From positions 1 through 52,632 of the forward strand of contig CAMWNF010000006.1 of the NCBI GenBank assembly GCA_947175535.1: a DNA stretch of 52,632 nt, given 5' to 3'. The stretch comes from an uncultured Bacteroidales bacterium. Its GTDB lineage: Bacteria; Bacteroidota; Bacteroidia; Bacteroidales; Muribaculaceae. How positions within the stretch are numbered: the first letter of the stretch is position 1; each line of letters starts with the position of its first letter. Below are positions 38,441 to 51,824 of the stretch, one piece after another. Made by a program: the position numbers and the translations under genes. The notes under the pieces are model-generated. The model was not told where the DNA came from. It ran no database searches and worked only from the letters and a program-made list of their open reading frames with translations.

Positions 38441-38845
38441 TCATTCCCACTCGATTAAGCGTTTGATTTGTGAATGGGCTGATATATCGTGAGTTATATT
38501 TGCTGTTCGTTTCATCGGGGTTGAAAATCGGGGTTGTTTTTGATTTTGCAGGCGCGCTGTAGGACAGTCAGTTAGATTGAAAATTCCACGCTGGCTGCTG
38601 GGATTTTTACTCTGTTCATGCCGTTTCAGACGTCTTGCGACTGCAAAGGTGCGCATTCTCGTTAACATACACAACACCAACGCTTTGCATTTTTTTCGCT
38701 CTCCCTCTGTGGCTTTAGCAATGCAGCCTGGGAGTGTTGTAACGAGATATTTGGAATACTCATAGTGTTGAGAAAGTGGAAGGTAGGTAACCCACCATTC
38801 CCCCTCCCTTCCTCCATACCTTAAGGGGCGCACATCGTTTGCCAT
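38441..38845 (-). CDS. Doubtful ORF reading through the left att site
   Basis: This 134-codon ORF ends in the att repeat, so its last residues IEWE equal the GuaA C-terminus. The product is basic with Arg/Lys/Pro/Thr-rich composition and little sign of a fold (for example RRLKRHEQSKNPSSQRG). It may be no more than open frame in a conserved element end. The tandem ATCGGGGTTG repeats lie within it. Confidence 0.2.
   Translation of the reverse strand: MANDVRPLRYGGREGEWWVTYLPLSQHYEYSKYLVTTLPGCIAKATEGERKKCKALVLCMLTRMRTFAVARRLKRHEQSKNPSSQRGIFNLTDCPTARLQNQKQPRFSTPMKRTANITHDISAHSQIKRLIEWE
38443..38456. repeat. Left attachment site (att) of the guaA element
   Basis: ATTCCCACTCGATT is identical to 50303-50316 in the 3' end of guaA. 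On the minus strand, with the two bases before it, it still encodes Ile-Glu-Trp-Glu and a TGA stop, that is, the original guaA tail displaced by insertion. Confidence 0.85.
38514..38536 (+). repeat. Tandem ATCGGGGTTG repeats at the left end of the element
   Basis: ATCGGGGTTG occurs at 38514-38523 and 38527-38536 with AAA between them, about 60 bases inside the left att site. Related copies lie inside the right end (50111, 50130). Position and direct repetition resemble arm-type integrase sites. Confidence 0.55.
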
Positions 38846-38954
38846 GGAAGATGTAGAAAATTTTCCTGGGAAATTTCACAGAGTGTGTCAACTGTTGAGG
38901 TGTGCCATTTTAATCTTGCCGAGGGCGTTTGATACACTCTCAAAGTGTAACAGC

Positions 38955-39734
38955 CTAATCTTTTAGGTTATTCTGTCGCAACCGATGTAGAAAGTGGTCG
39001 ATTTCGGACTGGTCACGAGTATTGCGCGGATAGCCGTTCCTCTTAAACCAAGGATTCATTTCGTTGGTTATAATTCCCAGTTTCTCGTATAGACCTCTGA
39101 ACGAGTAAACGTAGAGGTCATTCACAAACCAGCCTACGAAGAGTCGTCCTTCATCTAACCAAACATCCAAATCTATTGGGTACTTAAAGGTACTGGGTAC
39201 TTCCAGTTTCTTTTCTGCTTCCACCAGTTGAGGTATGATGGCTTGTTGTATAAGGGCTAACTCTTCGCTGTAATCATCGAAAGAATAACAGCGTCGAGGG
39301 TTCTTCGCATCCATACCCATAAGCCGACGTGAAAGATAATAGCGCACCCGCCATGCTGAATAGCCGTCATGGTAAAACGCAGCGTCCAGTATAGCAAATC
39401 TTTCGGCAATGGTGGAGAAGGCTCGGTAGTCCTGCCGTTGAGCGAACCAACGATATGCGCTTATATTCTCGAAGAGGTGCCAGTCGATGAAGCGGAAGAG
39501 TTTGACATAATGCCGTGGTGGATTCGGACTATTCTTGAATGAGAAGTCATCATAATCGCATAGCCCCAAACGTATAAGTTGTGCAATGGCTTTGTGCGGT
39601 ATGTTGAAGACAAGGACACAGTGGCGTTCATAATCTATGGCATGAATATAATGTGCATGAGTCAGCCAGTTTGAAACTTCAACTACTGACGTGGAATCAA
39701 ATGGAATGGTAAGAAAGTTGTGAATATGTTCCAT
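38955..39734 (-). CDS. Unknown protein, third gene of the NADAR operon
   Basis: I do not recognise this 259-residue protein. It is soluble, rich in aromatic residues (HYVKLFRFIDWHLFENISAYRWFAQRQ; AWRVRYYLSRRLMGM), and mixed alpha/beta, with a C-terminal YVYSFRGLYEKLGIITNEMNPWFKRNGYPRN segment. There are no membrane helices and no known catalytic signature. It is the most distal gene of the three-gene minus-strand operon headed by the NADAR gene and lies 89 bases after the 125-residue gene, with a hairpin in the gap. If the operon is a toxin/antidote or defence system, this is a candidate effector (inference). Confidence 0.65.
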   Translation of the reverse strand: MEHIHNFLTIPFDSTSVVEVSNWLTHAHYIHAIDYERHCVLVFNIPHKAIAQLIRLGLCDYDDFSFKNSPNPPRHYVKLFRFIDWHLFENISAYRWFAQRQDYRAFSTIAERFAILDAAFYHDGYSAWRVRYYLSRRLMGMDAKNPRRCYSFDDYSEELALIQQAIIPQLVEAEKKLEVPSTFKYPIDLDVWLDEGRLFVGWFVNDLYVYSFRGLYEKLGIITNEMNPWFKRNGYPRNTRDQSEIDHFLHRLRQNNLKD

Positions 39735-39763
39735 ACTATATAATGTGTAGATTGCTTAAGTTA

Positions 39764-39796
39764 ATTGGGCTGCGCTGAGGGGATACGCAACCCAAT
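39764..39796. repeat. Hairpin between the second and third genes of the NADAR operon
   Basis: ATTGGGCTGCG (39764-39774) and CGCAACCCAAT (39786-39796) pair with one mismatch around an 11-base loop. No T-run follows on the minus strand, so it is better read as an RNA-stability or translation element than as a terminator. GGGCTGCGC also occurs, inverted, in the leader hairpin region near 41065. Confidence 0.45.
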
Positions 39797-39823
39797 CTCC
39801 GTCGTTTGTGGTGAGCGCGGATG

Positions 39824-40201
39824 TTATCTTTTTATTACGATATGTTTGTTAAGTGCAGGGATGAGGCTCAAAAGAGAGCTGAAAGTATTAGTGACTTCTG
39901 ATGGAGTAGTTGGATTCCATTTGAAACCTAACGTATTTGAGATATTGTACAACCTTATGTTGAGACCAATAGCAAGCCCAATCTCTATTGTTCTATTCAT
40001 TGTGGTTGCAAGGTCATAATCCCACACCCACATTACCTTAAGACTTGTTATAATGCTGTCGTAAGAAACGATGGATGCAGAAATGCGTATAGGGGGCTGA
40101 AAGTGTCCTTCGTTGAAAACCCACTCCTCAATTAGCTGTTCTGTCTCACGAGGTGAATTTGGGAGTAGGCGCACCACTGGCGCGCACTCATGGCTATTCA
40201 T
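39824..40201 (-). CDS. Unknown protein, second gene of the NADAR operon
   Basis: This 125-residue protein begins MNSHECAPVVRLLPNSPRE and has an acidic helical N-terminal part (TEQLIEEWVFNEGHF), a central strand-rich part with IVSYDSIITSLKVMWVWDYDL, and a C-terminal helix (TNTFSSLLSLIPALNKHI). No family is recognised and no membrane helix is convincing. It lies 19 bases after the NADAR gene, so translation is likely coupled. Confidence 0.6.
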   Translation of the reverse strand: MNSHECAPVVRLLPNSPRETEQLIEEWVFNEGHFQPPIRISASIVSYDSIITSLKVMWVWDYDLATTMNRTIEIGLAIGLNIRLYNISNTLGFKWNPTTPSEVTNTFSSLLSLIPALNKHIVIKR

Positions 40202-40220
40202 AAGCGAAATTGTTTTGCGG

Positions 40221-40985
40221 TTAGAATGTTAAATGATTGCCCAATATGGTGATATTGGCTGAGTTGAGAAGAGCGCGGTCGATGGGAGGCTCAATACCTT
40301 CAATGAGGCAGCGACGGCAAATCATTAGAATCTTGCCTATGTTGTTCTGACCCTCGAAAGTTCCTATATTGCGGACTGAATTGGTCTCAATGTTGATTTT
40401 GAGGTCAAGAGCCTTCTTGGTGAGGTTCGCACCGCTCCATCGCTTGATACGCTGCGCGAGCTTTCTACGCTCGGCTATCAATTCGGGATTCTTACAGCCC
40501 CAAATCTGAGCCGTGCCACCAGTGTCGCGAGTGGTCTCTTCAACCAGTACCACACCCTCAGGGATGGATAGCAATTTGGCTCTAAAATCGGTATTGCCGA
40601 GGCACTTCTGCCAAATCACAAACAGCATCCACTGCAAGCGGAATGTCGGGAAATCCTCACGGACTTGTTTCTTGTACTTTGCCTTAATGAAACGTTTGGC
40701 AGCGTAACCGCTTGTTACAGAGAGAAACTCTCTCTGAATAGCCTCCTCAGCATACTCCCCACAAAGGTAAAGTTGCTCGGACGAAAGCCAGTTAACGCCT
40801 GCAAGCTCAAAGGGATAGCCCCCTGCCATGTTGCTAAGTCTCAACTCAATCCCCTCCACGATGTCAGTGACCTTCTTGAAGCACCACACGGGCTGCGCAG
40901 ACGCAACGATTCTCTCCTCACGCCCCAAGGACGCAACGAGTTCAGACACGAGAGATGAAGTCGAAAGATAATTTGGATTATTCAT
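40221..40985 (-). CDS. NADAR-superfamily protein (YbiA-like)
   Basis: This 254-residue protein contains the NADAR fold over about residues 35-165. LSNMAGGYPFELAGVNWLSS stands for the family's FSNF...PF block, SSEQLYLCGEYA (68-79) for its SxEhyfqA helix, AAKRFIKAKYKKQVREDF for the middle helix, WMLFVIWQKCLGN for the WmlxvvxxKfxqN helix, and VVLVEETTRDTGGTAQIWG (145-163) for the LvExsxxDxxWG end with the acidic catalytic residues. NADAR proteins act on ADP-ribose-derived compounds, and some reverse guanine ADP-ribosylation by toxins. The last 85 residues are extra and basic. It heads a three-gene operon with a structured leader. Confidence 0.8.
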   Translation of the reverse strand: MNNPNYLSTSSLVSELVASLGREERIVASAQPVWCFKKVTDIVEGIELRLSNMAGGYPFELAGVNWLSSEQLYLCGEYAEEAIQREFLSVTSGYAAKRFIKAKYKKQVREDFPTFRLQWMLFVIWQKCLGNTDFRAKLLSIPEGVVLVEETTRDTGGTAQIWGCKNPELIAERRKLAQRIKRWSGANLTKKALDLKINIETNSVRNIGTFEGQNNIGKILMICRRCLIEGIEPPIDRALLNSANITILGNHLTF

Positions 40986-41066
40986 AACTCTTTATTTTAT
41001 AGTTATTTACTATCGCGTCTGGATTTCTCCGACCACCGTGGCCAGTTATGCTTGGCTCGGTTGGCG

Positions 41067-41082
41067 CAGCCCCGAAGGGCTG
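41067..41082 (-). promoter_or_regulatory. UUCG-capped hairpin in the NADAR operon leader
   Basis: On the minus strand the leader reads CAGCCC-TTCG-GGGCTG, six base pairs closed by an extra-stable C(UUCG)G tetraloop. It lies about 80 bases before the NADAR start and about 30 bases after the predicted transcription start. Confidence 0.55.
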
Positions 41083-41118
41083 ACTCTTGACACTAAGGGA
41101 TTCTCCCTCTTCAGACTG

Positions 41119-41126
41119 CAAAGTTA
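41119..41126 (-). promoter_or_regulatory. Bacteroidales -7 box for the NADAR operon
   Basis: The minus strand reads TAACTTTG. Predicted transcription starts near 41112, giving a leader of about 125 bases with the UUCG hairpin. Confidence 0.5.
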
Positions 41127-41259
41127 CAAAATCAACATACCTCTTGTCAAGTTCTCGGTGTTAAAAATTGATAAGGACATTGTAGCAATAAATGACATTG
41201 TGATTATCACCTATACTGTTCCTCCTACCAACGGAAATACTTAAGTATATCAACATTTC

Positions 41260-42090
41260 TCAGTCTAAGTAAGACAAGTAGATAGTGTAGTGAGGTTTAT
41301 CCGTGAGTGAGAATTTAACATCAACACTTCTCAGTACATCTCCATCAAAATTATACTCCATCTTTTCAAACCATATCGTTGACAACATCTTCCGTGACTT
41401 TACTGGAATCCATTGAACCAGCATAAAGAAATTACTGTCTAAATCTATATTAAGTAAGCGTCCTCCTACATTACAACATCCTCAAATGATTTGCGATATA
41501 TCAACATTCAAGTCATTGTCATAAGATGAGTAGGAGACATTTTTATCTCTGCTACAACTTTTGGATTCGTTCCCGTTTGTAAGGTTGATGACATTGTAAA
41601 ATACATACACATTATTATCCATCATTTTAACTGACTCGCGTAATGCTGCGAAGTTATCCCCAGCATCTCGGTGTACTATTGAAAGAGCATAATCTTGAAA
41701 GTCATAATCATAACAGAACATTCCTATTTTGAGGGGTCTATTCTTTTCAATGTCATATCGGGACATCTCGACTGGTCTCTTTTCAGCATCGACCTTTATT
41801 TCATACTGACTATTTTTTTTGTTGTCGGAAAAGTCCTCTCTTATAATGTTTCCGTCTTCATTTTTGTGTATCTTGACAGTCTCGTAAGCAATGGCTTGTC
41901 GTCCAAATACTACTGAATTAATCTCACCTCTATTGTCATATTCCAATTTGATTAGATATGGGAGGGCTGAGCTGTCGGAATAATCTACTCTAATCTCGGA
42001 CACCATTTTCTCGCTTCGCTGATTCAATCTTACTGCATTTGCGGAAAATGAAAACAACGCCACGATTATCAAAATTACTGACTTCTCCAT
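41260..42090 (-). pseudogene. Secreted protein gene interrupted by an in-frame TGA
   Basis: From the ATG at 42090 the gene encodes a signal peptide (MEKSVILIIVALFSFSANA) and a strand-rich protein resembling Bacteroidales DUF4595-type proteins (YLIKLEYDNRGEINSVVF...). A TGA at 41482-41484 stops it after 202 residues (ISQII). The same frame continues past it for about 73 codons of protein-like sequence (NVGGRLLNIDLDSNFF...) and ends with the family-like LTDKPHYTIYLSYLD. The uninterrupted product would be about 275 residues. A single GGA to TGA change explains the break. It is the last gene of the zinc-ribbon operon. It could be a recent pseudogene, a readthrough case or a base error. Confidence 0.65.
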
Positions 42091-42139
42091 GGTTCTATGT
42101 TTATTGAAATTAAAGAGGAGACCGAAGCCTCCTCCATTC

Positions 42140-43813
42140 TTATTTTGCATAATATACTTCGCTACCACTTGAAACTGAGCCATTAGCAGCATTGATATAT
42201 AGCGTAAGTATTTGCCCTCCTGAATATGGGTCAGACGTTTGCAGCGTAGCGCGTGAACCATTGAAATTAACGATTCTTACGCCACCTGTCTGTGGTGAGC
42301 CATTGACTTCCAAATAACGCGGTGTTATCCGAAAACGAGTCCCACGTCCATAATATACTGTTGATGATAAATACGCCCATACATCAGCCTCAGTTCTAAA
42401 GGTTGTAGATGATGAAGAATATGTAGAGGATGAACTGTTGTAAGATGAAGTTGAAACTTTTGAGTAGTATTTCCCTCTGTCAAATTCAATTCGATGTGAA
42501 TAGGAATCAAATTTGATTACAAATGATGAACCGTTTCTACTGTCATATACTATCTCATTGTCGCGTATCTCATAGTAGCCGTTATAGACCAATTCTCCAT
42601 TATCATACACTTTGAGGTTATCATCGGAAATGATTAGTTTTGAAGTTACTCTTTTAACTCCTCCTAAGTAACGTCCCATATCAACAGTGCCACTATATTC
42701 CCATGAGCCGTAAAGCCATTCTCTCTGCCGTTGGCGTTCTTCTTCCTCACGCTTTTGACGTTCTTCTTCAGCGGCTCGTCTTAGTTGTTCATTGTGGCTA
42801 TCCAGTAGAGATGCAATCAACCCATTAAGATGTTGCTCCATCTCGTCTTGCTGTGTTGAGGTTAGAGTGGAGTTACCATGATTATCAATGAAGTATTGGA
42901 TTGTTTTTTCTTCCGTCTGATAGGGATAACTGTTTGCATCCAATATCTGCCAAGTTACTAATCTCGCTCCATTATCGCATTCAACCGTATCACGAGCAAT
43001 GGTGATAGCATAATCGTCATAGACAATTTTCTTTTCATGTATTGGTGCGATATCTTTATAGGGAATGGGACAAGGATAGGGCTGAAACTGTATCATTTTA
43101 TATCCAATAGAATCTGCTACTTCATGGAGAGTCCCCTTGGCATCAACTAATTTTATTTCGATATCGTCAAATGCTTCCTGTGTTCCATTGCTCCAGACTG
43201 CACACTTGCCATCTTTGAAGGATGGTAATTTATGACTTTCTTCCTCCCATACTGACCCCATATTTGGATTTTCCGTAAAGTAATCTCCCGTCAATATCCA
43301 TTCACCCTTTTTATTGATGAAACCGACGCGCTGATTCCATAGCTTTTTATCTTCTTCGTCTCGGTCATCAACCACACAAGCTAACCCCTCTGAAAATTGA
43401 CCAGGAGGGAAAGCATCGGAAAATTGGCAGGGAATTACTTCTTCTCCTTTGAGATTGATATACCCCCATTTTCCATTACGTCTCACGGCAGCAAGCCCCT
43501 CGGAAAAAGCATCTATTTGGTCGTAACGTTCAAGTGCTTTAGTGAATTCGGGGGTAATTGCCAGAGTTGGTTTTCCGAAAGAATTATTACCGAAAAGGAG
43601 GAAAGAACCAGTAATGATAGCTAATGTTCCAACCACTACGAGAGTAATCAATAATTGTTTATGGATTTTTCGAGGATTAGTCGGTTGTGGTTGCTCATTC
43701 TGAGGCTCGGATATTTCCTCTTTCTGAAATTCAATCGGGCATCCGCAATGAGGACATTCCGCAGCACGGTCAGACATCGTGCCTCCGCACTCTTTACAAG
43801 TAATCAAAGCCAT
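42140..43813 (-). CDS. Zinc-ribbon membrane protein with WG repeats
   Basis: This protein of about 557 residues starts with a zinc ribbon (Cys6, Cys9, Cys20, Cys23 in ITCKECGG...ECPHCG), has one transmembrane helix at about 52-74, and then WG-type repeats (FSEGLAAVRRNGKWGYINLKG, FSEGLACVVDDR...VGFINKKGEW). A coiled, Arg/Glu-rich stretch (RRAAEEERQKREEEERQRQR) near the middle leads to a lipocalin-like and Ser-rich C-terminus. The topology puts the ribbon in the cytoplasm and the repeats outside. It overlaps the preceding zinc-ribbon gene region (stop at 43816, start at 43813). An in-frame TTG 6 bases earlier is a possible alternative start. Confidence 0.75.
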   Translation of the reverse strand: MALITCKECGGTMSDRAAECPHCGCPIEFQKEEISEPQNEQPQPTNPRKIHKQLLITLVVVGTLAIITGSFLLFGNNSFGKPTLAITPEFTKALERYDQIDAFSEGLAAVRRNGKWGYINLKGEEVIPCQFSDAFPPGQFSEGLACVVDDRDEEDKKLWNQRVGFINKKGEWILTGDYFTENPNMGSVWEEESHKLPSFKDGKCAVWSNGTQEAFDDIEIKLVDAKGTLHEVADSIGYKMIQFQPYPCPIPYKDIAPIHEKKIVYDDYAITIARDTVECDNGARLVTWQILDANSYPYQTEEKTIQYFIDNHGNSTLTSTQQDEMEQHLNGLIASLLDSHNEQLRRAAEEERQKREEEERQRQREWLYGSWEYSGTVDMGRYLGGVKRVTSKLIISDDNLKVYDNGELVYNGYYEIRDNEIVYDSRNGSSFVIKFDSYSHRIEFDRGKYYSKVSTSSYNSSSSTYSSSSTTFRTEADVWAYLSSTVYYGRGTRFRITPRYLEVNGSPQTGGVRIVNFNGSRATLQTSDPYSGGQILTLYINAANGSVSSGSEVYYAK

Positions 43814-43815
43814 AA

Positions 43816-44547
43816 TCAATCCCCGTGATAACGTTTTTTGAGAACGATGGTATTTCCATCGACTTCTAAATCTGTACCAGTCCAGTAAATCTCATCATAT
43901 TTAGGTCCCTGGTAAGAATTTGATGAAACTTTGGTAAAGTGATTGTTTTCTGCATCTGATAAGAATGTGTTCGCTAATTTTTTGTCGGAAAAGACAATTT
44001 CAATATTACCGTTCCTAACAATGTCATATTCGTCATCAATGCCTTCAATTTTGACTTTTATATAATTTTGACCGTCTCCTCTTTCATAGGTATAATTTTT
44101 TATTTTGCGGAAATCAGTATATGAGTCATCAGTGGCAAAATCAATCTCGGATTCAGTTTCAGAGGTCTTTTGGAATTTAAGTTCTTCCAATGACCGAATT
44201 AGCTGACTTACCTTTTTAATATCCATAACTTCCACTTCTGCATCAAAGAAACAGAACGAAAGAACATCAATCGGAGCAAAATCTTGGGAGATTACGGAAG
44301 TATCTGTATCTTCAACAACTTTATTATCCTCAACTACCCCTGTCGAAGTCTCCTTATAAAACATGAACAAAATCCCTAAAAAAGTAAAGACTACTACGGC
44401 GCAAATGTATAATACCAATCCTTTTTTTCTACTCGCTTTTTTTCGAGTAGTAGATTGCGTCACATTTATGTCAACTCCGCAATGAGGACATTTTTTTGCT
44501 CGGTCAGAAACTTGTTGACCGCACTCGGGACATTTAGTAAGAGCCAT
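43816..44547 (-). CDS. Zinc-ribbon single-pass membrane protein
   Basis: This 243-residue protein has the same start as its downstream neighbour: a zinc ribbon (Cys6, Cys9, Cys20, Cys23; TKCPECGQQVSDRAKKCPHCG), a basic stretch (TTRKKASRKKG), then a membrane helix at about 44-65 (LVLYICAVVVFTFLGILFMFY). The outer part of about 180 residues is acidic and mixed alpha/beta, with no named domain. The two paralogous N-termini suggest that both proteins answer to one cytoplasmic partner or form a complex. It heads the operon and has a leader of about 310 bases with attenuator-like structure. Confidence 0.7.
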   Translation of the reverse strand: MALTKCPECGQQVSDRAKKCPHCGVDINVTQSTTRKKASRKKGLVLYICAVVVFTFLGILFMFYKETSTGVVEDNKVVEDTDTSVISQDFAPIDVLSFCFFDAEVEVMDIKKVSQLIRSLEELKFQKTSETESEIDFATDDSYTDFRKIKNYTYERGDGQNYIKVKIEGIDDEYDIVRNGNIEIVFSDKKLANTFLSDAENNHFTKVSSNSYQGPKYDEIYWTGTDLEVDGNTIVLKKRYHGD

Positions 44548-44612
44548 ATTACTTTTTAATGCCCATAGCGGCTCGATAGGGCGATTTTAATTGTTACTCT
44601 TGGAAGGCACAT

Positions 44613-44660
44613 AAAAAAGAGTGAGCTGCAATCGGCATTTTATCTACGATGCAGGCTCAC
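44613..44660 (-). terminator. Intrinsic terminator inside the zinc-ribbon leader
   Basis: On the minus strand GTGAGC-C-TGCA-TCG pairs with CGA-T-TGCA-GCTCAC, leaving single-base bulges, and is followed by TCTTTTTT. It lies 66 bases upstream of the start codon it would control. Confidence 0.7.
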
Positions 44661-44672
44661 CACAAGCCACGG

Positions 44673-44721
44673 AGTCGATATTATACGCGATGCAACTCAC
44701 CCACAGCGTATATTATCGACT
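44673..44721. repeat. Long inverted repeat with a third matching arm
   Basis: AGTCGATATTATACGC (44673-44688) and GCGTATATTATCGACT (44706-44721) are complementary at 15 of 16 positions across a 17-base loop. AGTCGTAATATGC (44725-44737) is a third arm that can pair with the second, so two alternative hairpins exclude each other. Confidence 0.75.
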
Positions 44722-44862
44722 GGAAGTCGTAATATGCAACCATGGGGAGAGCGTTACGCAGTTCCTGACTCCGATTGGCAAAGGTGGTGATTTTGCATCG
44801 TCAAGAAAAGCCTAAACACTTTCCTATATGTCTCGTTAAAGCCTAATACAGCAATAACACTG

Positions 44863-44870
44863 CAAATTTA
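44863..44870 (-). promoter_or_regulatory. Bacteroidales -7 box for the zinc-ribbon operon
   Basis: The minus strand reads TAAATTTG followed by CAGTGTTA, the same TTTGCAGTGT start context as three other promoters in the element. Confidence 0.5.
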
Positions 44871-44925
44871 CGAAAAAATTCTAAGATTCCCAGTATAACA
44901 TCCTGATAATTTGTAGAAATATGAT

Positions 44926-44951
44926 TAACTTTGCAGGTTAAAATCCCCGAT
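44926..44951 (+). promoter_or_regulatory. Promoter box and ATCGGGGAT site before the 293-residue gene
   Basis: TAACTTTG at 44926-44933 predicts transcription near 44940. ATCCCCGAT (inverted ATCGGGGAT) at 44943-44951 then fills the space between start of transcription and the ATG at 44953. It is well placed as an operator or translational control site. Confidence 0.5.
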
Positions 44952-44952
44952 A

Positions 44953-45834
44953 ATGCCTACAACTCTTGATACATACCCCCATCCTCAACTTCGCTACACG
45001 GTGAGATTGCGATATATCTGCCCCATTTATGGTGAGCTGATAACTGATTATATCTTTATGAGCGAAGATGAACATGATGAGGAAACATCTTATCGACGGA
45101 TTTTGGAGGACAAGAAGCGGGAGCTAAATACTTTGGTGTATGATGGTGATGAGAAAATAGCGGAATGGGAGACCATTGCAGAAATTGAGAACACCTTCTA
45201 TGAGAGTGAAATTCTTTCCGATGCTGTTCTGTCTCTTCTTAAAGATGGGAGGGTATCTTTTATAGATGAGTGTGCTACTGATGAGGATATAAGATTGGCT
45301 TTATATTACCTTTACTCAATCTGCGACCAGTATAGTAAAGCAAGAGTTAAAAAGGAATTTAAGCGTCTGCCTTTCGCTCCGTTAAAGAATATAGTTGATA
45401 GAATCCTCTCGATATGGAATACTTCAACGAGAACGAAAAGTCAGAAGAATGGTAGAATTGAAACCGCATGGAGTAAGAAAGACCAGGAACTATCTCGACT
45501 GCTCTCGGAACAGTCAAAAGAGGCAGTTGATGTGTTTCGCAAGGATTTAATCAAACTAAATGAAAAATGGGGAATCCGTGCCGAGGAAGACAATTATAGA
45601 AGAGCTGTAATCATTGCTAAGTTTTTATGTGATTACCCTGCTACCAAAGGGCTTAATGTGGGCTTTTCTGAGGGGATGAGAATCCTATGCAATTATTTTC
45701 GTGTGCCACAAACCACTTATAAGAGAAGGGTGCTGATGCCGTCTCCCGAAGTTCTTGAAACATTATCAAAGCCTCAACGTGCATTCCAAGAGCAAATTAT
45801 AGAGCCGTGGAAGAACTTCATCAGTAAATTCTGA
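44953..45834 (+). CDS. Unknown 293-residue cargo protein
   Basis: I do not recognise this protein. It is soluble and mainly helical after a strand-rich start (RYTVRLRYICPIYGELITDYIFM). It contains a charged region (DEHDEETSYRRILEDKKRELN), a basic stretch (TRTKSQKNGRIETAWSKKDQELSRLLSEQ) and a Lys/Arg-rich end with TTYKRRVLMPSPE, which could contact nucleic acid (inference). It is followed by an intrinsic terminator and so forms a single-gene transcript. Confidence 0.6.
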   Translation: MPTTLDTYPHPQLRYTVRLRYICPIYGELITDYIFMSEDEHDEETSYRRILEDKKRELNTLVYDGDEKIAEWETIAEIENTFYESEILSDAVLSLLKDGRVSFIDECATDEDIRLALYYLYSICDQYSKARVKKEFKRLPFAPLKNIVDRILSIWNTSTRTKSQKNGRIETAWSKKDQELSRLLSEQSKEAVDVFRKDLIKLNEKWGIRAEEDNYRRAVIIAKFLCDYPATKGLNVGFSEGMRILCNYFRVPQTTYKRRVLMPSPEVLETLSKPQRAFQEQIIEPWKNFISKF

Positions 45835-45872
45835 CCTCGTTCCCGAATCGTTCCAAAAATATAAGTTATAAA

Positions 45873-45909
45873 AGGCTGATATAGTGTCAACTATGTCGGC
45901 CTGTTTTTT
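45873..45909 (+). terminator. Intrinsic terminator after the 293-residue gene
   Basis: AGGCTGATATAGT and ACTATGTCGGCCT form a 13-base-pair stem with two G-U wobbles around GTCA, followed by GTTTTTT. Confidence 0.85.
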
Positions 45910-45924
45910 ATTGACAACCGATAA

Positions 45925-45949
45925 ATCGGGGATGATGGTGCTAATTTTG
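45925..45949 (+). promoter_or_regulatory. ATCGGGGATG site and promoter box before the 170-residue gene
   Basis: ATCGGGGATG lies at 45925-45934 in the upstream part of the promoter, and TAATTTTG at 45942-45949 is the -7 box, followed by CAGTGTCA. The site would let a bound protein block polymerase. Confidence 0.5.
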
Positions 45950-46007
45950 CAGTGTCAAATCGCCTCGGATAGTCCGAAAGCGAGGATTGACACAATGCAA
46001 AAGAGAA

Positions 46008-46520
46008 ATGACAAAGAACAAATCAAACATCCCCGAATGCTCCAATTTCTTCATCAATGAAGAATCTCAAACCGACCTCGCAGACTTCCTCGCTTTCGCT
46101 GCGGATGAGATAGAGGATGCAGTCTGCCCGCTTAAGGACATCGACCTCGACGATTTCGATAATCTTGATGATGAGGAAAGAGAGTATGCTATCAGCGGTT
46201 TATGGTTTGCTGCTAATATCACTGCCGATGAGGTTTGTCGACTCTTAGATGAATGTGAGAGAGTTGTGGCTGATTATCGCAGGCTCTCCTTAGCTCTTCG
46301 CAGATGGAAGCATGGAGACCCTAATCCACTCATCGACTCAAATCTCGTGTCCTCATTTCACTGGATTCAAAGAAAGAGCAAAGAGGGTATCATCTACGAA
46401 TTGCAGCATGAGGATGTAAACGTTCTTTCCAATTATATGATTGAGGATTTATTCCCCTATTTCGGTGAAGCATACTTTACCGAGGATGCTCTCGACTATA
46501 TCAACGAAACTATTCATTGA
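46008..46520 (+). CDS. Unknown acidic 170-residue protein
   Basis: The start at 46008 (MTKNKSNIPE) gives about 170 residues; an in-frame TTG at 45987 is a weaker alternative. The protein is highly acidic (DEIEDAVCPLKDIDLDDFDNLDDEEREY), mostly helical, with an EVCRLLDECERVVADYRRLSLALRRWKHG segment. Strong negative charge could point to a DNA-mimic or antitoxin-like role, but nothing proves it. It ends 7 bases inside the convergent XRE gene. Confidence 0.6.
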   Translation: MTKNKSNIPECSNFFINEESQTDLADFLAFAADEIEDAVCPLKDIDLDDFDNLDDEEREYAISGLWFAANITADEVCRLLDECERVVADYRRLSLALRRWKHGDPNPLIDSNLVSSFHWIQRKSKEGIIYELQHEDVNVLSNYMIEDLFPYFGEAYFTEDALDYINETIH

Positions 46521-46816
46521 TTTATCCAATCCTTCAATTCCGACTTACTATGAAACAGATAAGTTTTCCCTTCCTCAACTACCATAGCTGTAAATTCCGA
46601 GGTCAGCGGTTCATACGACCGCCCACCAGTTAATAACTCGGCTACTCCTACTCCAAGGGCATTGGCGATATTCTTCATGGTAGAGAGATGAGGATTGCCA
46701 CCGAGGGCACGACTTAGGCTTTCGGGTTTTATCCCCATGGTCTCAGCCAGTTGTTTGAGGGTAATACCATGCTTTGAGCAGAGTTCTTTGACTCGATTAG
46801 AGAGTGATTTATCCAT
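46514..46816 (-). CDS. XRE-family helix-turn-helix repressor
   Basis: This protein of about 100 residues from the ATG at 46816 has a phage-repressor-type helix-turn-helix at about 19-40 (ITLKQLAETMGIKPESLSRALGG) and NIANALGVGVAELLTGG typical of XRE proteins. A small C-terminal strand region (EFTAMVVEEGKTYLFHSKSELKDWI) follows. It is divergent from the recombination operon and separated from it by repeated operator-like sites, so it probably controls excision and its own expression. A longer frame start at 46849 would lie before the promoter-derived leader and is less likely. Confidence 0.85.
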   Translation of the reverse strand: MDKSLSNRVKELCSKHGITLKQLAETMGIKPESLSRALGGNPHLSTMKNIANALGVGVAELLTGGRSYEPLTSEFTAMVVEEGKTYLFHSKSELKDWINQ

Positions 46817-46835
46817 ATAAGTTGAATTTACACTG

Positions 46836-46936
46836 CAAAGATAGCGCAATTAACTTGGAATATCAATTTTGCAAGACTGAATTAACTTTAGTTAGCTGTG
46901 ATAATTTGGATTCACTTAACTTTAGCTGTAATTTTG
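46836..46936. promoter_or_regulatory. Divergent switch region with three TTAACTT sites
   Basis: The leftward promoter is TATCTTTG on the minus strand (46836-46843). The rightward promoter is TTTG (46905-46908), 20 bases, TAATTTTG (46929-46936). Between them lie TTAACTTGG (about 46850-46858), TTAACTTTAGTTAGCT (about 46882-46897, containing the dyad TAACT-TT-AGTTA) and TTAACTTTAGCT (about 46916-46927). The last one sits inside the rightward promoter spacer and the first is upstream of the leftward box. Confidence 0.6.
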
Positions 46937-46968
46937 CAGTGTGATTCTTAACCGATAATATCAAAAAT

Positions 46969-47277
46969 ATGGCTGAATACATTCTTCAAATCCTCCGCTC
47001 GCAACTCATGGTAATGTTGTCTTGGGGCTTCAACTCTCCGACACGCCTCCCCGAAGACCATGGCCTCGCCTTCAAAGTGCAAGGCTACAAATACAAGGGC
47101 TGGGTCGAGGTCATCTACGATGAGGGACTTGACACTTTCACAGTTGTTCTCAAAAAGACTGGCAAGGTCGTTGAAGATGTGTACTTCGATGAACTGGTGA
47201 ATGTCTTTGACAGTCTTGTTGAACGCACTGACGATTACGAGGAGCGAGTAAAGAACGAGTATGTTTTCACCGCTTAA
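46969..47277 (+). CDS. Unknown 102-residue protein, first gene of the recombination operon
   Basis: This 102-residue protein is mixed alpha/beta: an N-terminal helix (YILQILRSQLMVMLSWGF), then strands (GLAFKVQGYKYKGWVEVIYDE, TFTVVLKKTGKVVEDVYF) and a C-terminal acidic helix. Its composition fits a small DNA- or protein-binding accessory factor of mobile elements. It lies 11 bases before the serine recombinase gene and directly behind the switch promoter, so an excision-factor role is conceivable (inference). Confidence 0.65.
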   Translation: MAEYILQILRSQLMVMLSWGFNSPTRLPEDHGLAFKVQGYKYKGWVEVIYDEGLDTFTVVLKKTGKVVEDVYFDELVNVFDSLVERTDDYEERVKNEYVFTA

Positions 47278-47288
47278 TAATCATTTAG

Positions 47289-47936
47289 ATGGAGAAGACC
47301 AAAGCTGTTATTTACGCTCGTGTTTCCACAAGTAGTCAAGACTATGACCGCCAATTACATGACCTACGTGAGTATGCTACTCGCCAAGGTTACGAAGTCG
47401 TTAAAGAGTTCTCCGAGAAGATAAGTGGAGCTAAGAAGGTCGAAGAGCGTCAAGCCATGACAGAACTTCTTGACTACACCAGTAAGCATAAGATTGATAA
47501 AATACTCATCTACGAGTGTAGCCGTCTGAGCCGTAGAGCTGTTGACTTCCTCAAACTCATAGAGACCTTTACCGAGCGCGGAATATCTGTCTTCATCCTC
47601 CAAAATGGGCTTGAAACCATGCTTCCCGATGGGAAAGTCAATCCGATTGCCACCTTGGTTCTTGGTATTCTTGCTCAGTTCAACGCGATGGAACGCGGTC
47701 TTATCCGAAGCCGTATGCAGAGTGGATATTCCAATTACCGTGCTAACGGTGGAAAGGTTGGACGCAAGGACGGCTATAACAAGCCCATTGAAGCCTATAA
47801 AGAGGAGTATGCCGAGGAGTTACGACTCTTAAAACGAGGCTACAGCCTCCGAAATATTTCAAAAATAACTGGCACCAGCGTGACTACAATCCGCAAGGTA
47901 GCCGATTTAATCAACAAAGAAAAGAAAGCTGTATGA
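47289..47936 (+). CDS. Small serine recombinase (resolvase/invertase type)
   Basis: This 215-residue protein has the catalytic serine at Ser13 in IYARVSTSSQDYDRQ, the conserved YECSRLSRRAVDFL arginine block near residues 75-88, and a C-terminal helix-turn-helix (SLRNISKITGTSVTTIRKVADLI). It is of resolvase/invertase size and lacks the large C-terminal domain of serine integrases. The GTATGA junction makes its stop overlap the integrase start by 4 bases (ATGA). In this context it may resolve multimers of the excised form or invert DNA; no inverted gix-like pair was identified. Confidence 0.92.
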   Translation: MEKTKAVIYARVSTSSQDYDRQLHDLREYATRQGYEVVKEFSEKISGAKKVEERQAMTELLDYTSKHKIDKILIYECSRLSRRAVDFLKLIETFTERGISVFILQNGLETMLPDGKVNPIATLVLGILAQFNAMERGLIRSRMQSGYSNYRANGGKVGRKDGYNKPIEAYKEEYAEELRLLKRGYSLRNISKITGTSVTTIRKVADLINKEKKAV

Positions 47937-49264
47937 AGATACGTTTTAACTTGCAATATCCAAATCGCGAAAAGTCATTAATAATGGCGATAATTCGTGA
48001 TAAAGGGCAGCAGACTAAAAAATCCATAGGAGTCTCTATCCCGACCCATCTATGGGATAAGTCAAAGCAACGATGCAATGAGGAAGGAGGTTCTACAGTC
48101 CGCGAAAAACGCGAATTGCACAAAATCAACAAGCAACTCGATGAGATAGAAAAACGATGTTCCCAAGTAGGTAACTTTTGTCTATTTGGCTCAATTAAAA
48201 TGTCAGACATAGACTTTACCCCTGCTTTCGACAATGCTGTAAAATCAGCTAAAAGAAAGGTGGATGAGGTGGAAGCCAAGTCTCAGCGCACCCCTACGCA
48301 GTTCTTTCAAGAGTACATTGAAAGAATACCTACGATGATATGTAAGGGTACAAAGCGAAATATCAGCGTTAAGACGCAGGGACATCATAGAGTAATTCTT
48401 AAACGGCTTGAGACTTTTATGAGAGATACTCGTACACCTGATAGTTTCGAGATGTTCAATGAGAAATTTAATGACCGCTTCACTAACTGGGCATATCATA
48501 TAGCTCGCCCTGGTCGTGGTTATAGCCTCAACTCGGTGTGTGCTACTTTTTCAATATTGAAATTGTGGTTAAATGCAGCAACAAAAGAAGGATTGCTTAC
48601 AACGACTTGTTATAAAGACCTACCAACCAAGGAAGAAACGGAGAAGAAAATTTCCCTTACAGAAGATGAGATAACGGCTTTATATAATCTTGACATTTCT
48701 CAGTTGATGGAAGATGGTCTTATTGACTCGAAATCAACAATGGAAGTATCGCGTGATTTGTTCATAATTGGCTGTTGGACTGGGCTGAGACGTGCGGACT
48801 TGAATCGTATTAACGAGGCAATATTTGACTTTCCAAAGAACATTCTCACCATCCAAACCCAAAAAACAAAAGCGATGGTTACAATTCCCCTCCATCCTTA
48901 TGTGAAGGCATTATATGCAAAATACAATGGGAAGTTCCCCAAACTGGTGGATAAAAGCAAAAGTAATGCACACCTCAAAGAACTGGGACGGCTCGCAGGT
49001 CTTAATGATATAGTTCAGCAATCTCAAACGGTTTGTGGTGATAGGGTATCAAAGAAATATTTGAAGTACCAATGTATAGGTTTCCATACTGCTCGACGAA
49101 GTTTCGCGACTAACCTTTATCGCAAGGGTATGCAAACACTCGCAATTATGAGCATGACAGGTCACACCACAGAAGAAAACTTCTTGAAATATATCAAAAT
49201 TGAAAAAGAAGAATATGCGGAAAGGAATCAGGAATTTTTCACTGGTAACAAGACAGTCGTATGA
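47933..49264 (+). CDS. Tyrosine recombinase (phage-type integrase)
   Basis: This 443-residue integrase has an N-terminal arm/SAM-like region typical of Bacteroidetes integrases and a C-terminal catalytic domain. The catalytic Arg is in WTGLRRADLNRI, the HxxR box is HTARRSFATNLY, the second His is in MTGHTTEENFLKYI, and the nucleophile Tyr should be in FLKYIKIEKEEYAERN. It is the likely enzyme for insertion at the guaA tail. It overlaps both neighbours by 4 bases (ATGA at each end), so the three genes are co-translated. Confidence 0.94.
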   Translation: MKIRFNLQYPNREKSLIMAIIRDKGQQTKKSIGVSIPTHLWDKSKQRCNEEGGSTVREKRELHKINKQLDEIEKRCSQVGNFCLFGSIKMSDIDFTPAFDNAVKSAKRKVDEVEAKSQRTPTQFFQEYIERIPTMICKGTKRNISVKTQGHHRVILKRLETFMRDTRTPDSFEMFNEKFNDRFTNWAYHIARPGRGYSLNSVCATFSILKLWLNAATKEGLLTTTCYKDLPTKEETEKKISLTEDEITALYNLDISQLMEDGLIDSKSTMEVSRDLFIIGCWTGLRRADLNRINEAIFDFPKNILTIQTQKTKAMVTIPLHPYVKALYAKYNGKFPKLVDKSKSNAHLKELGRLAGLNDIVQQSQTVCGDRVSKKYLKYQCIGFHTARRSFATNLYRKGMQTLAIMSMTGHTTEENFLKYIKIEKEEYAERNQEFFTGNKTVV

Positions 49265-50103
49265 AGAAGAACGAACACAAATATCAGTTTACGGCTATGC
49301 CCGTGAACTTGACCGCGTGTATGGATGTAAATTGTAGGAGTATGCTCTTTACGCTCCTGCAATTATCATCATATTACGCAGATGAGGATGGTTGGTTTTT
49401 CCGCAGTAATGCAGACCTCCAAGCTCAAAGCCGTCTAAGTGAGAACTTAGTTAGAGCCACAATCAGCACACTTTATCGATTAGGTGTTATTGATGTTCGG
49501 ATAGATGGAAAATCAAAGAGTCAATCGCCTAATCACTTTAAGGTGAATGAAACGGCAATGCTCCAATGGGAGAAGTATAGCATCGAAGATTGCATTAAGA
49601 ACCCCGACTATGCCATAATGACCGACCAGTATAGGACAACTGGATGGAAGCCGTCTTATCTTGACAAATCAGCTAAAGCAACTCCTCATTCACAACAGTC
49701 TCTCCCCGAAATTGAGGACAATATAGATAATGCAGCAAATGAAGAGAATACAGTTAATATACTCTCTGCAGGGGCGCATGAGAGAGTTTCTACTCATCCG
49801 AGAGAATTCCGCTCACCAACTATGGCAGAGTACAAACAAAATGAAGATGAACTCATGGAACGACTAAAGAACGTTACATCATGGCTTGATTATGAAAGAA
49901 TATCCAAGGAAGTGGACTGGCTGTTAATTAACGTTCCAAGTGAGAAAGCAAAGGAGTACACTTACCAACGGTTACAAGCATTGACTACTTCAAAAATTCC
50001 CTACTTCTCCAAGAAGTATCAGTCAGAGCCAGACAACCCCATCGGAAAACAATTTTTCAAGTGGTTGGATAATTGGAGAAAACTTCATGGCAAATCTATC
50101 TGA
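49261..50103 (+). CDS. Winged-helix protein, possibly replication initiator-like
   Basis: This 280-residue protein has an N-terminal winged helix at about 20-100 (MLFTLLQLSSYYADEDGWFF, NADLQAQSRLSENLVRATISTLYRLGVIDV) as in HTH_36/RepA-like proteins of Bacteroidetes elements. A disordered, Asn/Glu-rich linker follows, then a C-terminal helical part (LMERLKNVTSWLDYERISKEVDWLL, KEYTYQRLQALTTSKIPYFSKKY). It may initiate replication of the excised circle or act in excision. It is the last gene of the recombination operon and ends about 200 bases from the right att site. Confidence 0.75.
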   Translation: MKKNEHKYQFTAMPVNLTACMDVNCRSMLFTLLQLSSYYADEDGWFFRSNADLQAQSRLSENLVRATISTLYRLGVIDVRIDGKSKSQSPNHFKVNETAMLQWEKYSIEDCIKNPDYAIMTDQYRTTGWKPSYLDKSAKATPHSQQSLPEIEDNIDNAANEENTVNILSAGAHERVSTHPREFRSPTMAEYKQNEDELMERLKNVTSWLDYERISKEVDWLLINVPSEKAKEYTYQRLQALTTSKIPYFSKKYQSEPDNPIGKQFFKWLDNWRKLHGKSI

Positions 50104-50110
50104 CAATCCC

Positions 50111-50150
50111 ATCGGGGTCATTTTCTCTCATCGGGGATGAATAGCGGGGG
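50111..50150 (+). repeat. Right-end ATCGGGG repeats
   Basis: ATCGGGGTCA at 50111-50120 and ATCGGGGATG at 50130-50139, 19 bases apart, are followed by the weaker ATAGCGGGGG at 50141-50150. They mirror the left-end pair and fit integrase arm sites. Confidence 0.5.
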
Positions 50151-50177
50151 CGATTCTCTCAAAACTGGCAAAATAGA

Positions 50178-50248
50178 CAATCCACGGAAAACTCAGCGAG
50201 TTAACCGTGGATTGCTTGTAAGTGGTTGGTATCAATCCGTGTGGATTG
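50178..50248. repeat. CAATCC dyads near the right att site
   Basis: CAATCCACGG (50178-50187) and CCGTGGATTG (50205-50214) are perfect inverted arms, with a second inner dyad AACTC-AGC-GAGTT between them. A related dyad CAATCC-GTGT-GGATTG follows at 50233-50248. There is no T-run behind them. They lie 55-125 bases from the att core and may be sites for an excision factor or an origin of the excised form. Confidence 0.65.
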
Positions 50249-50300
50249 TTCCGAAGTGGTGTAATCGACTATAGTTCAGAGGGGTCTGAATGAGCCTCTA

Positions 50301-51824
50301 TTATTCCCACTCGATTGTGGATGGTGGTTTGGAGGAGATGTCGTAGCATACGCGGTTGACTCCACGAACCTGATTGATGATGTCGTTTGACACTTTTGCA
50401 AGGAATTCGTAGGGTAGGTGTGCCCAGTCTGCGGTCATTGCATCTGTTGAAGTTACAGCACGAAGAGCGACGGCGCGTTCGTAGGTGCGTTCATCACCCA
50501 TAACGCCTACACTTTGAACCGGAAGCAGAATAACACCTGCTTGCCATACTTTATCATAAAGATTCCAGTCGCGGAGACCCTGAATGAAAATATCGTCTGC
50601 TTCTTGAAGAACACTTACCTTTTCGGGGGTGATATCGCCGAGTATTCTGACTGCAAGACCAGGCCCTGGGAAAGGATGACGTTTAATAAGGTGTTCGGGC
50701 ATGCCTAACGAACGACCCACGGCGCGCACCTCGTCTTTGAAAAGGAGACGGAGAGGTTCGCAGAGTTTCAGGTTCATCTTTTCGGGCAGACCGCCGACGT
50801 TGTGATGACTCTTTATGACCGTTCCGGTTATAGAGAGAGATTCGATGCAATCGGGATAGATTGTGCCTTGTGCAAGCCATTTAACGTCTTTGATTTTGTG
50901 CGCCTCTTCGTCGAACACGTCGATGAAGCCTTTTCCGATTATCTTACGCTTGCGCTCAGGGTCTGTTACTCCTTCAAGCTCTTTGAAGAAACGGGCAGAT
51001 GCGTCGACACCGATAACATTCAGTCCGAGACATTCATAGTCATGCAATACGTTGCGGAACTCATTCTTGCGCAGCATGCCGTGGTCGACGAATATACATG
51101 TCAGATTCTTGCCGATTGCACGGTTGAGAAGCACTGCAGCTACAGACGAGTCCACACCGCCACTAAGTCCGAGTACGACTTTATCATCTCCGAGCTGTTC
51201 GCGAAGAGCGGCAACTGTCGATTCTATAAATGATTCCGCACTCCAGCTCTGAGAGCCACCGCAGATATCGACAACAAAGTTTTTAAGAAGCTGAGTGCCA
51301 CAGGTCGAATGGAATACTTCAGGATGGAACTGTACGCCCCAAGTCTTTTCGCCTTCGACATGGTAAGCTGCGATAGCAACTTCTTTGGTTGAAGCGATAA
51401 TATTGAATCCTTCAGGTAGCCGGGTGATTGTGTCGCCGTGACTCATCCAAACCTGAGAACCGACTTCGATATTTTTTAGCAGCGGGTCTGCTTCATTTAC
51501 TTTTGTAAGTATAGCTCGACCATATTCGCGGGAAGGAGCAGGTTCGACAGCTCCTCCTGCTTCGTATGCCATAAGCTGTGCGCCATAGCAGATGCCGAGC
51601 ACTGGATAATGGGTACGGAGACGGTCAAGTTCGGTTTTGAATGCTTTTTCATCGTAGACCGAGAACGGACTTCCGGACAAAATAACACCGATTACGTTTT
51701 TGTCTTCGTAGGGAAATTTGTTGTAGGGAATGATTTCGCAATAAGTGCTGAGTTCGCGAACGCGTCGACCGATAAGCTGTGTGGTCTGCGAACCGAAATC
51801 AAGAATTATGATTTTCTCTTGCAT
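50301..51824 (-). CDS. guaA: GMP synthase (glutamine-hydrolysing)
   Basis: This 507-residue enzyme converts XMP to GMP. The class I amidotransferase domain has the nucleophile Cys in [15 protein letters not shown] and the HPE partner in [11 protein letters not shown]. The PP-loop is [12 protein letters not shown], and the C-terminal dimer domain has [15 protein letters not shown] and the canonical ending [10 protein letters not shown]. Its last codons are the integration target of the element, which restores the protein exactly while changing the stop from TGA (left copy) to TAA. Confidence 0.97.
50303..50316. repeat. Right attachment site (att) in guaA
   Basis: ATTCCCACTCGATT matches 38443-38456 exactly. 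It encodes the last guaA codons on the minus strand; the TAA stop at 50301-50303 uses two bases supplied by the element. Confidence 0.85.

Follow-up and report, generated by a model that had tools for sequence, protein, structure and literature searches.

The stretch of DNA analysed here (the window) comprises 52,632 nucleotides, positions 1 to 52,632 of the forward strand of contig CAMWNF010000006.1 (assembly GCA_947175535.1) from an uncultured Bacteroidales bacterium of the Muribaculaceae. The genome that carries it (G000; 2.56 Mb, 184 contigs) was analysed within a family-level comparison sample of 297 Muribaculaceae genomes. Between guaA and nadE the window holds an integrative island whose backbone adjoins guaA in six of the 297 genomes, spread over four genera (G000, G102, G031, G271, G290 and G074; hereafter the members). 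The island of G074 is split over three contigs, and that of G031 runs off its contig, its distal end missing. Protein family scans (Pfam, NCBIfam, PHROG and others) covered part of the members' open reading frames (ORFs). The ends of the island and its recombination operon are formed by the following features.

38443..38456, unstranded: attR core repeat ATTCCCACTCGATT on the nadE side, an exact repeat in the same place in G271, G102, G290 and G074
46514..46849, minus strand: XRE/Cro-CI-type repressor, divergent (HTH_26 2.1e-8; phrog_8 1.1e-12), in six of six members
46850..46968, unstranded: divergent control region, conserved, containing TTAACTTTAG (46882, 46916) and GTAATTTTGCAG (46928) (six-member alignment)
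46969..47277, plus strand: orf102, the gene paired with the serine recombinase, in six of six members
47289..47936, plus strand: small serine recombinase of the resolvase/invertase class (Pfam Resolvase 9e-36)
47933..49264, plus strand: tyrosine integrase (Pfam Phage_integrase 1.4e-10)
49261..50103, plus strand: WH280, replication-initiator-like (phrog_428 replication initiation 6.9e-8; phrog_186 DnaD-like 1.7e-6)
50303..50316, unstranded: attL core repeat, formed by the last guaA codons, exact repeat ATTCCCACTCGATT
50301..51824, minus strand: host guaA, its 3′ end rebuilt by the element, with the IEWE end and the stop codon intact

The initial annotation of this DNA had placed two exact 14-base repeats around 11.86 kb, one of them in the last guaA codons, and these coordinates hold: the copies lie 11,860 bp apart and match at 16 of 17 positions when extended. 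By itself a 14-bp repeat is weak evidence, since such pairs arise by chance; 200 mononucleotide shuffles gave a mean of 0.44 exact 14-mer pairs, with at least one pair in 28% of them. It is the position in guaA, together with the comparison of relatives, that makes the discrete island real. Both core repeats were found in all five members with two assembled ends (G000, G271, G102, G290 and G074), so that the concern that relatives might all carry these genes without flanking repeats did not hold. Comparison of guaA-nadE loci for empty sites, as the initial annotation had proposed, yielded one in the near relative G003 (guaA 94% identical), in which the convergent nadE directly follows guaA, within 68 bp, and a single copy of the guaA tail is present. 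With both repeats in the members and an empty site in a relative, the reading of the repeats as a chance pair was rejected, and the discrete guaA-tail element first described stands.

The backbone runs in the order hyp259, orf125, NADAR, cargo, orf293, XRE, orf102, serine recombinase, integrase, WH280, and the four members assembled on a single contig have islands of 11.9, 12.0, 13.0 and 15.7 kb. The trio of resolvase, integrase and third gene, sought in other guaA tails, is present in the other members. Within the genus, guaA was matched in 38 of 49 genomes; among the 30 loci listed, two carry the island (G000 and G102), and 26 others have neither island genes nor nadE in a flanking stretch that is in some cases only 101 bp long. 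G304 (L108, ~1680-1850) keeps ~165 bp of the island right end beside guaA, arm repeats included. This remnant is a scar of the island, and no island gene was found beyond the ~165 bp. guaA itself stays intact, because the island sits between duplicated copies of the guaA tail. Matches to mir-17 and Spd-sr07 at the guaA-nadE hairpin were below the gathering cutoff and were taken as chance.

The integrase genes of G000 and G290, members from different genera, differ at 2 of 1,332 bases, against a DNA identity of 63% for guaA; because the integrase is nearly the same in genera with such divergent guaA, we regard the island as moving. The right halves of the two islands are 92% identical (blastn), and identity in 250-bp bins flanking the integrase ranges from 78 to 94%. 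This mosaic along the islands means that they have recently exchanged DNA with one another besides being transferred, and the integrase gene itself has crossed genera recently. Three of seven distant integrase relatives (34-46% identical) were inspected: those of G173 and G099 adjoin guaA, oppositely oriented and with no trio beside them, and that of G257 lies on an 8.2-kb contig without guaA. An older preference of the integrase lineage for guaA is likely on this distribution. It is very improbable that the island is a decayed, immobile remnant kept at guaA by descent. Decay could be read from an ORF at 44621-44815 that matches the start of a longer ORF in G102, and one scar is known, that of G304; but the recombinases are intact, the integrase is nearly identical across genera, an empty site exists, presence is patchy, and the short ORF falls in a structured noncoding region described below.

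Homologues of the serine recombinase (E up to 1e-20) occur in 33 of the 297 genomes, of the integrase (1e-40) in 13, of WH280 (E 1e-10) in 8 and of the NADAR protein (E 1e-15) in 13. Both recombinases retain their catalytic residue sets: S13, R54, R79 and R82 of the serine enzyme are invariant in eight aligned proteins, and R286, K311, H385, R388, H411 and Y420 of the integrase in six. At 215 residues the serine enzyme is too small to be a large serine integrase; its catalytic domain matches PDB entries 1gdt, 2r0q and 1zr2, and its C-terminal match to HTH_7 (7.6e-4) lies below the cutoff. Among the members it is 90-96% identical, and thus among the most conserved proteins of the island; the integrase ranges from 58 to 100%.

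An operon translated through successive ATGA overlaps, with serine and tyrosine recombinases locked in one translational unit, had been proposed initially. Both junctions, serine recombinase/integrase and integrase/WH280, are indeed ATGA in the window, and the second is so in six of six members; the first is kept in only four (G000, G031, G102 and G290). A strictly locked unit was therefore rejected for the family; elsewhere, the serine enzyme also occurs without this integrase. At four loci of 3.6 kb (L019, L021, L023 and L025) it lies beside an orf102 homologue, with no match to the island integrase; serine recombinase and orf102 homologue are likewise neighbours in the viral contig L121, the orf102 homologues of all these loci being 38-42% identical. 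At L064-L068 a serine recombinase 58-62% identical to that of the island accompanies a 108-136-aa ORF, a different tyrosine integrase and other cargo, with no guaA within the stretch compared. From these arrangements, in which the serine recombinase occurs without the island integrase or with another and is for this reason separable, we conclude that integrase and WH280 form the invariant unit, and orf102 and the serine recombinase a linked, separable module. Dimer resolution would be the likeliest use of the serine enzyme, because a replication-initiator-like gene lies alongside.

That gene, WH280, and the repeats at the two ends of the island bear on replication of an excised form.

38457..38954, unstranded: left-end noncoding region (blastn, four-member alignment)
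38513..38533, plus strand: iteron-like ATCGGGG repeats at the left end (38514, 38527), from sequence comparison
50110..50136, plus strand: iteron-like CATCGGGG repeats just past WH280, with at least one exact copy in five of five members
50178..50248, unstranded: arm-type inverted repeats CAATCCACGG/CCGTGGATTG and CAATCC...GGATTG, in five of five members and in the G304 scar

The third gene sits in the operon as initially described, where it had been called a winged-helix protein; we reclassified it as replication-initiator-like from its PHROG matches, which are weak, and WH280 would on these matches resemble phage replication initiators. Its sole PDB sequence matches, peridinin-chlorophyll proteins, were taken as spurious. 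Foldseek returned 0 matches to its structure model at E 0.001 or better, and the top ranks (E above 1), among them small terminases and an entry for the F-plasmid relaxosome, were given no weight. At the sensitivity used, WH280 had no match in PLSDB or INPHARED and none was confirmed in a pattern-based scan of IMG/VR; with no PLSDB or INPHARED match, a known plasmid or phage origin was rejected. The first left-end ATCGGGG copy is present in four of the four members compared there and the second in three (inexact in G290). A highly conserved run surrounds CTGTAGGACAG at 38557-38567. The left end is 73% identical to that of G102 over the first ~390 bp (blastn), and 75% (G271) and 88% (G290) identical within longer matches. 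The repeats at the ends would serve as iterons and integrase arm sites, those of the control region as operators. The phage-like XRE switch of the initial annotation is borne out by the divergent repressor and its HTH_26 and phrog_8 matches. The replicating excised form suggested there gains some support from the PHROG matches of WH280 and from CATCGGGG repeats at both ends; dimer resolution by the serine enzyme, the other part of that suggestion, is inferred.

Next to orf125 on the backbone, two features form a constant block.

40221..40985, minus strand: NADAR-domain protein (Pfam NADAR 2.5e-8; 34.8 bits against a cutoff of 35.1)
40983..41098, minus strand: SAM-I/IV riboswitch aptamer RF01725 (49.4 bits; gathering cutoff 41.1), ending on the NADAR start codon

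New here is a SAM-I/IV (S-adenosylmethionine) riboswitch on a constant, anti-phage-like NADAR gene in six of six members. The gene is constant in the island, its protein being 80-87% identical in the other five members, and matches the NCBIfam model of DS32_2 anti-phage NADAR proteins (NF053876) at 1.1e-16, far below the cutoff. In all six members the aptamer ends on the NADAR start codon; scores in these and in G140 are 46.7-55.6 bits against 41.1. It is the sole RF01725 match in the genomes of G000, G102 and G290, and G003, with the empty site, has none, which fits import with the island rather than a part in host metabolism. Six more distant NADAR loci lack the aptamer.

Some NADAR proteins act against phages, and PMC13092281 names NADAR domains. 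Titles and abstract openings of the papers listed gave no account pairing a riboswitch with a NADAR gene. The G140 match precedes the NADAR gene of a partial relative, L176 (G140:C74, 7717-11535), which also holds an orf125-like gene and a cargo gene related to one in G102; its contig is short, and the neighbouring genes resemble thrS and infC by eye. At the thresholds applied, G140 had no match to either recombinase of the island. Riboswitches of the SAM-I class turn genes off with SAM, and some phages carry SAM-cleaving anti-restriction enzymes. One could imagine a metabolite-gated phage alarm, in which the aptamer silences NADAR at high SAM and lets it be expressed once a phage depletes or destroys SAM, protecting host and island, with the rod-like leader described next gating the cargo likewise; we hold this rather unlikely.

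The middle of the island is occupied by the following features.

41482..42261, minus strand: cargo ORF, a frame of 259 aa whose inner part resembles a signal peptide (by eye), start uncertain (ORF list)
42140..43819, minus strand: cargo gene with a zinc-ribbon-like N-terminus (by eye) and WG repeats (WG_beta_rep 1.2e-18)
43816..44547, minus strand: cargo gene for a zinc-ribbon protein (Zn_ribbon_3 1.6e-8)
44634..44812, minus strand: rod-like structured RNA (or single-stranded DNA) of ~180 nt upstream of the cargo operon (fold z-scores, six of six members)
44860..44872, minus strand: possible promoter box CGTAAATTTGCAG for the rod/cargo transcript, with TGCAAATTTA conserved in five of five, presumably akin to the Bacteroidota -7 consensus

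This middle part forms an operon of exchangeable cargo genes, preceded by a putative structured leader. The ORF at 41482..42261 matched only the window, the island DNA compared from the other members giving nothing at E 1e-3; the WG-repeat gene has relatives in G290 and G074, and different genes take its place in G031, G271 and G102. PADLOC, run on 10 proteins, gave one match, a G102 ORF with weak Mads/methyltransferase similarity.

Also new is the island-specific rod-like structure ahead of the exchangeable cargo in six of six members. Fold z-scores for window positions 44615-44800 are -6.7 (plus) and -5.7 (minus); the minimum energy is lower on the minus strand in five of six members, although the z-score in the window is stronger on the plus strand. 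Single folds agree in the six members, and the outer stem keeps its pairing through changes on both sides (e.g. ACGATGC/GCATCGT versus ACTAACG/CGTTAGT), as judged from single folds and an ungapped outer-stem comparison of about four distinct sequences. The consensus fold that RNAalifold derived from plain MAFFT alignments was poor (-23 and -33 kcal/mol). The exact marker motif of the rod is found only in the six carriers among the 297 genomes, and the rod has no Rfam match. It could act as a leader RNA or, as single-stranded DNA, serve as a signal of the kind of an origin of transfer (oriT).

The remaining backbone and accessory features are these.

38955..39734, minus strand: hyp259, a backbone protein with homologues in six of six members (39-96%; partial in G031)
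39765..39816, unstranded: hairpin TTGGGCTGCG...CGCAACCCAA followed by TTGTGGTGAGC, upstream of hyp259, aligned in five members
39824..40201, minus strand: orf125, a divergent backbone protein, linked in G102 only via the G271 and G031 homologues
44953..45834, plus strand: orf293, a backbone protein of unassigned fold with homologues in six of six members (30-98%)
45987..46520, plus strand: orf177, a variable accessory gene (TTG start listed), from the ORF list and member comparison

hyp259 had no match in the protein family scans, and the AlphaFold2 model of orf293 has a predicted local distance difference test score (pLDDT) of 48.6. The motif GTGGTGAGC occurs in the hyp259 leader hairpin, with an inverted partner at 44655, in five of five members. 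The G102 island (L061:9805-10683) has an extra 292-aa ORF between hyp259 and the distal att site that the other members lack; it matched no family, PDB, phage or plasmid entry, and a Rep-like (replication protein) look by eye was unsupported by the searches.

The inverted GTGGTGAGC/GCTCACCAC pair flanks the NADAR-cargo block in five of five members and raises the question whether the serine recombinase acts on it as a DNA invertase or cargo-swap enzyme. The closest families of the enzyme are a DNA invertase (best PHROG match, 3.3e-40) and the Mpi invertases (best NCBIfam match, below cutoff), and distant inverted repeats of 20 bp with at least 18 matches, of which the island has one, arose once in only one of 15 mononucleotide shuffles. 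The invertase function is distinctly unlikely all the same, as the NADAR-cargo block is oriented alike in all members examined and the pair is accounted for by the rod's own stem and the hyp259 leader. In its favour there is also G173, in which a stretch of ~10 kb lies between two copies, identical and inverted, of another serine recombinase. This stretch lies beside the guaA-adjacent integrase (L073, 1883-15884); each end carries an 80-aa ORF and a serine recombinase 37% identical to that of the island, the two copies being identical in DNA, and it is possibly a large invertible segment.

On balance we think it probable that the element is a site-specific, helper-dependent integrative island of Muribaculaceae whose excised circle would replicate, with the serine enzyme resolving the circles. 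The XRE protein would keep the divergent promoters silent, and once this repression is lifted, orf102, serine recombinase, integrase and WH280 would be produced. With the aid of the arm repeats, the integrase would recombine the 14-bp cores and release a circle, and WH280 would initiate replication at the CATCGGGG repeats, which in the circle flank attP on both sides. Replication or recombination dimers would be split into monomers by the serine recombinase, a co-resident phage or conjugative element would ferry the circle to a new cell, and there the integrase would re-insert it at guaA.

Several observations weigh against this account. The 13.5-kb stretch holds six exact 14-mer pairs, so other 14-bp repeats are present; the best family matches of the serine enzyme include invertases; no clear res dyad was seen by eye in the control region 46850-46968 or beside serine recombinase homologues; and coupling is not constant, with a 121-aa ORF between serine recombinase and integrase in G271 and G074. 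WH280 has no meaningful match in Pfam, NCBIfam or PDB, and its structure model scored low (pLDDT 54). An excised circle was not observed: viral contigs gave 0 matches to the attP junction pattern.

As for transfer, the absence of relaxase and conjugation genes noted in the initial annotation was confirmed for the island proteins scanned, among which no relaxase, type IV secretion system (T4SS), large-terminase, capsid or other virion family was recognised. With no relaxase or T4SS family among the scanned proteins, the island lies outside the standard Bacteroidales plan of integrative and conjugative elements (ICEs) and NBUs, and membership of these groups was rejected. Small-terminase models gave weak matches to XRE (0.02) and a G102 ORF (0.089), probably due to the helix-turn-helix alone and given no weight; likewise XRE matched the regulator TrbA at 4.9e-4, below cutoff and weak, again probably through the helix-turn-helix only. 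The 292-aa ORF of G102, without a family match, may be an unrecognised relaxase in that member. Since no transfer gene is recognisable, a helper is to be expected.

Two proposals name this helper, which the probable account leaves open, and neither excludes that account. The genes of phage-inducible chromosomal islands (PICIs) are a repressor, an integrase, a replication gene and swapped cargo. A satellite of this kind, in which a helper phage induces the repressor/integrase/initiator island and packages it, is a serious possibility, if somewhat short of an even chance. The layout of repressor, integrase and replication initiator agrees with it, as do the matches of WH280 and XRE to phage families; a constant gene akin to anti-phage NADAR next to swapped cargo recalls satellite defence hotspots, as far as these are set out in the part of PMC9122126 consulted. 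Yet the scanned proteins include no capsid, large-terminase, redirecting or capsid-size gene, WH280 was not found in INPHARED or by the pattern-based IMG/VR scan, and the island right-end pattern was not found in viral contigs. A side finding in IMG/VR is the viral contig L110, which has an integrase of 42% identity, a fusion of XRE with NADAR, a small replication-initiator-like ORF and several proteins with zinc-ribbon-like N-termini (by eye), that is, island-like parts in another arrangement.

The other proposal, a relaxase-less mobilizable element of the iOriT type with an oriT in 39765-39816 or 44609-44812 nicked by the relaxase of another element, is possible but somewhat doubtful. Both regions are conserved, hairpin-rich and noncoding. 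PF03432 relaxases occur elsewhere in five of the six carriers at E 0.001, and in four over the cutoff, the window genome included, always on contigs other than that of the island. G102, a carrier 99% complete, has no PF03432 match, which speaks against mobilization and for a satellite. Islands with Rep proteins do exist at the guaA tail, and GIsul2 has 'None' in what is presumably the relaxase column of a table in PMC5704250; but the rod is equally compatible with a leader RNA.

Compared with known systems, the island is of a known kind, a helper-dependent integrative island, and not a new category. In the parts of PMC5704250 consulted, GIsul2, the IncP islands and ATE-1 are tyrosine-integrase islands at the guaA 3′ end, like the present one; Rep-type proteins are listed for GIsul2 and the IncP island, and GIsul2 apparently shares the lack of a relaxase. 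Unlike it, they belong to other phyla, Trb proteins are given for GIsul2, and those parts mention no serine recombinase, SAM riboswitch or rod for guaA islands. NBU1, NBU2, Tn4555 and other mobilizable elements described there resemble the island in being Bacteroidota elements with a tyrosine integrase that depend on helpers; in contrast to the island, in which no relaxase was recognised, these elements carry genes for MobP relaxases, and tRNA 3′ ends are the sites used by NBU1 and NBU2. PICIs and other phage satellites, as far as covered in PMC11389934, are alike in repressor, integrase, replication gene and swapped cargo, and unlike in that here no packaging or capsid gene was identified and no helper is known. 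The gamma-delta/Tn3 resolvases, Sin/Bin3 and Mpi-type invertases resemble the island serine enzyme in the catalytic domain, the Mpi match being below cutoff; the island enzyme differs from known small serine recombinases in lying beside orf102 and, in the island family, near a tyrosine integrase, with no res or inversion site identified. No guaA-tail element of Bacteroidales was found among the papers listed, judging by titles and abstract openings.

The island thus defines a coherent integrative family in gut bacteria at the guaA tail, a site used by islands of other phyla. Its clear mobility without recognisable transfer genes makes it testable how relaxase-less Bacteroidota islands travel, and its riboswitch-led NADAR gene, together with the rod specific to the island, offers a handle on whether mobile elements control defence genes by metabolite sensing.

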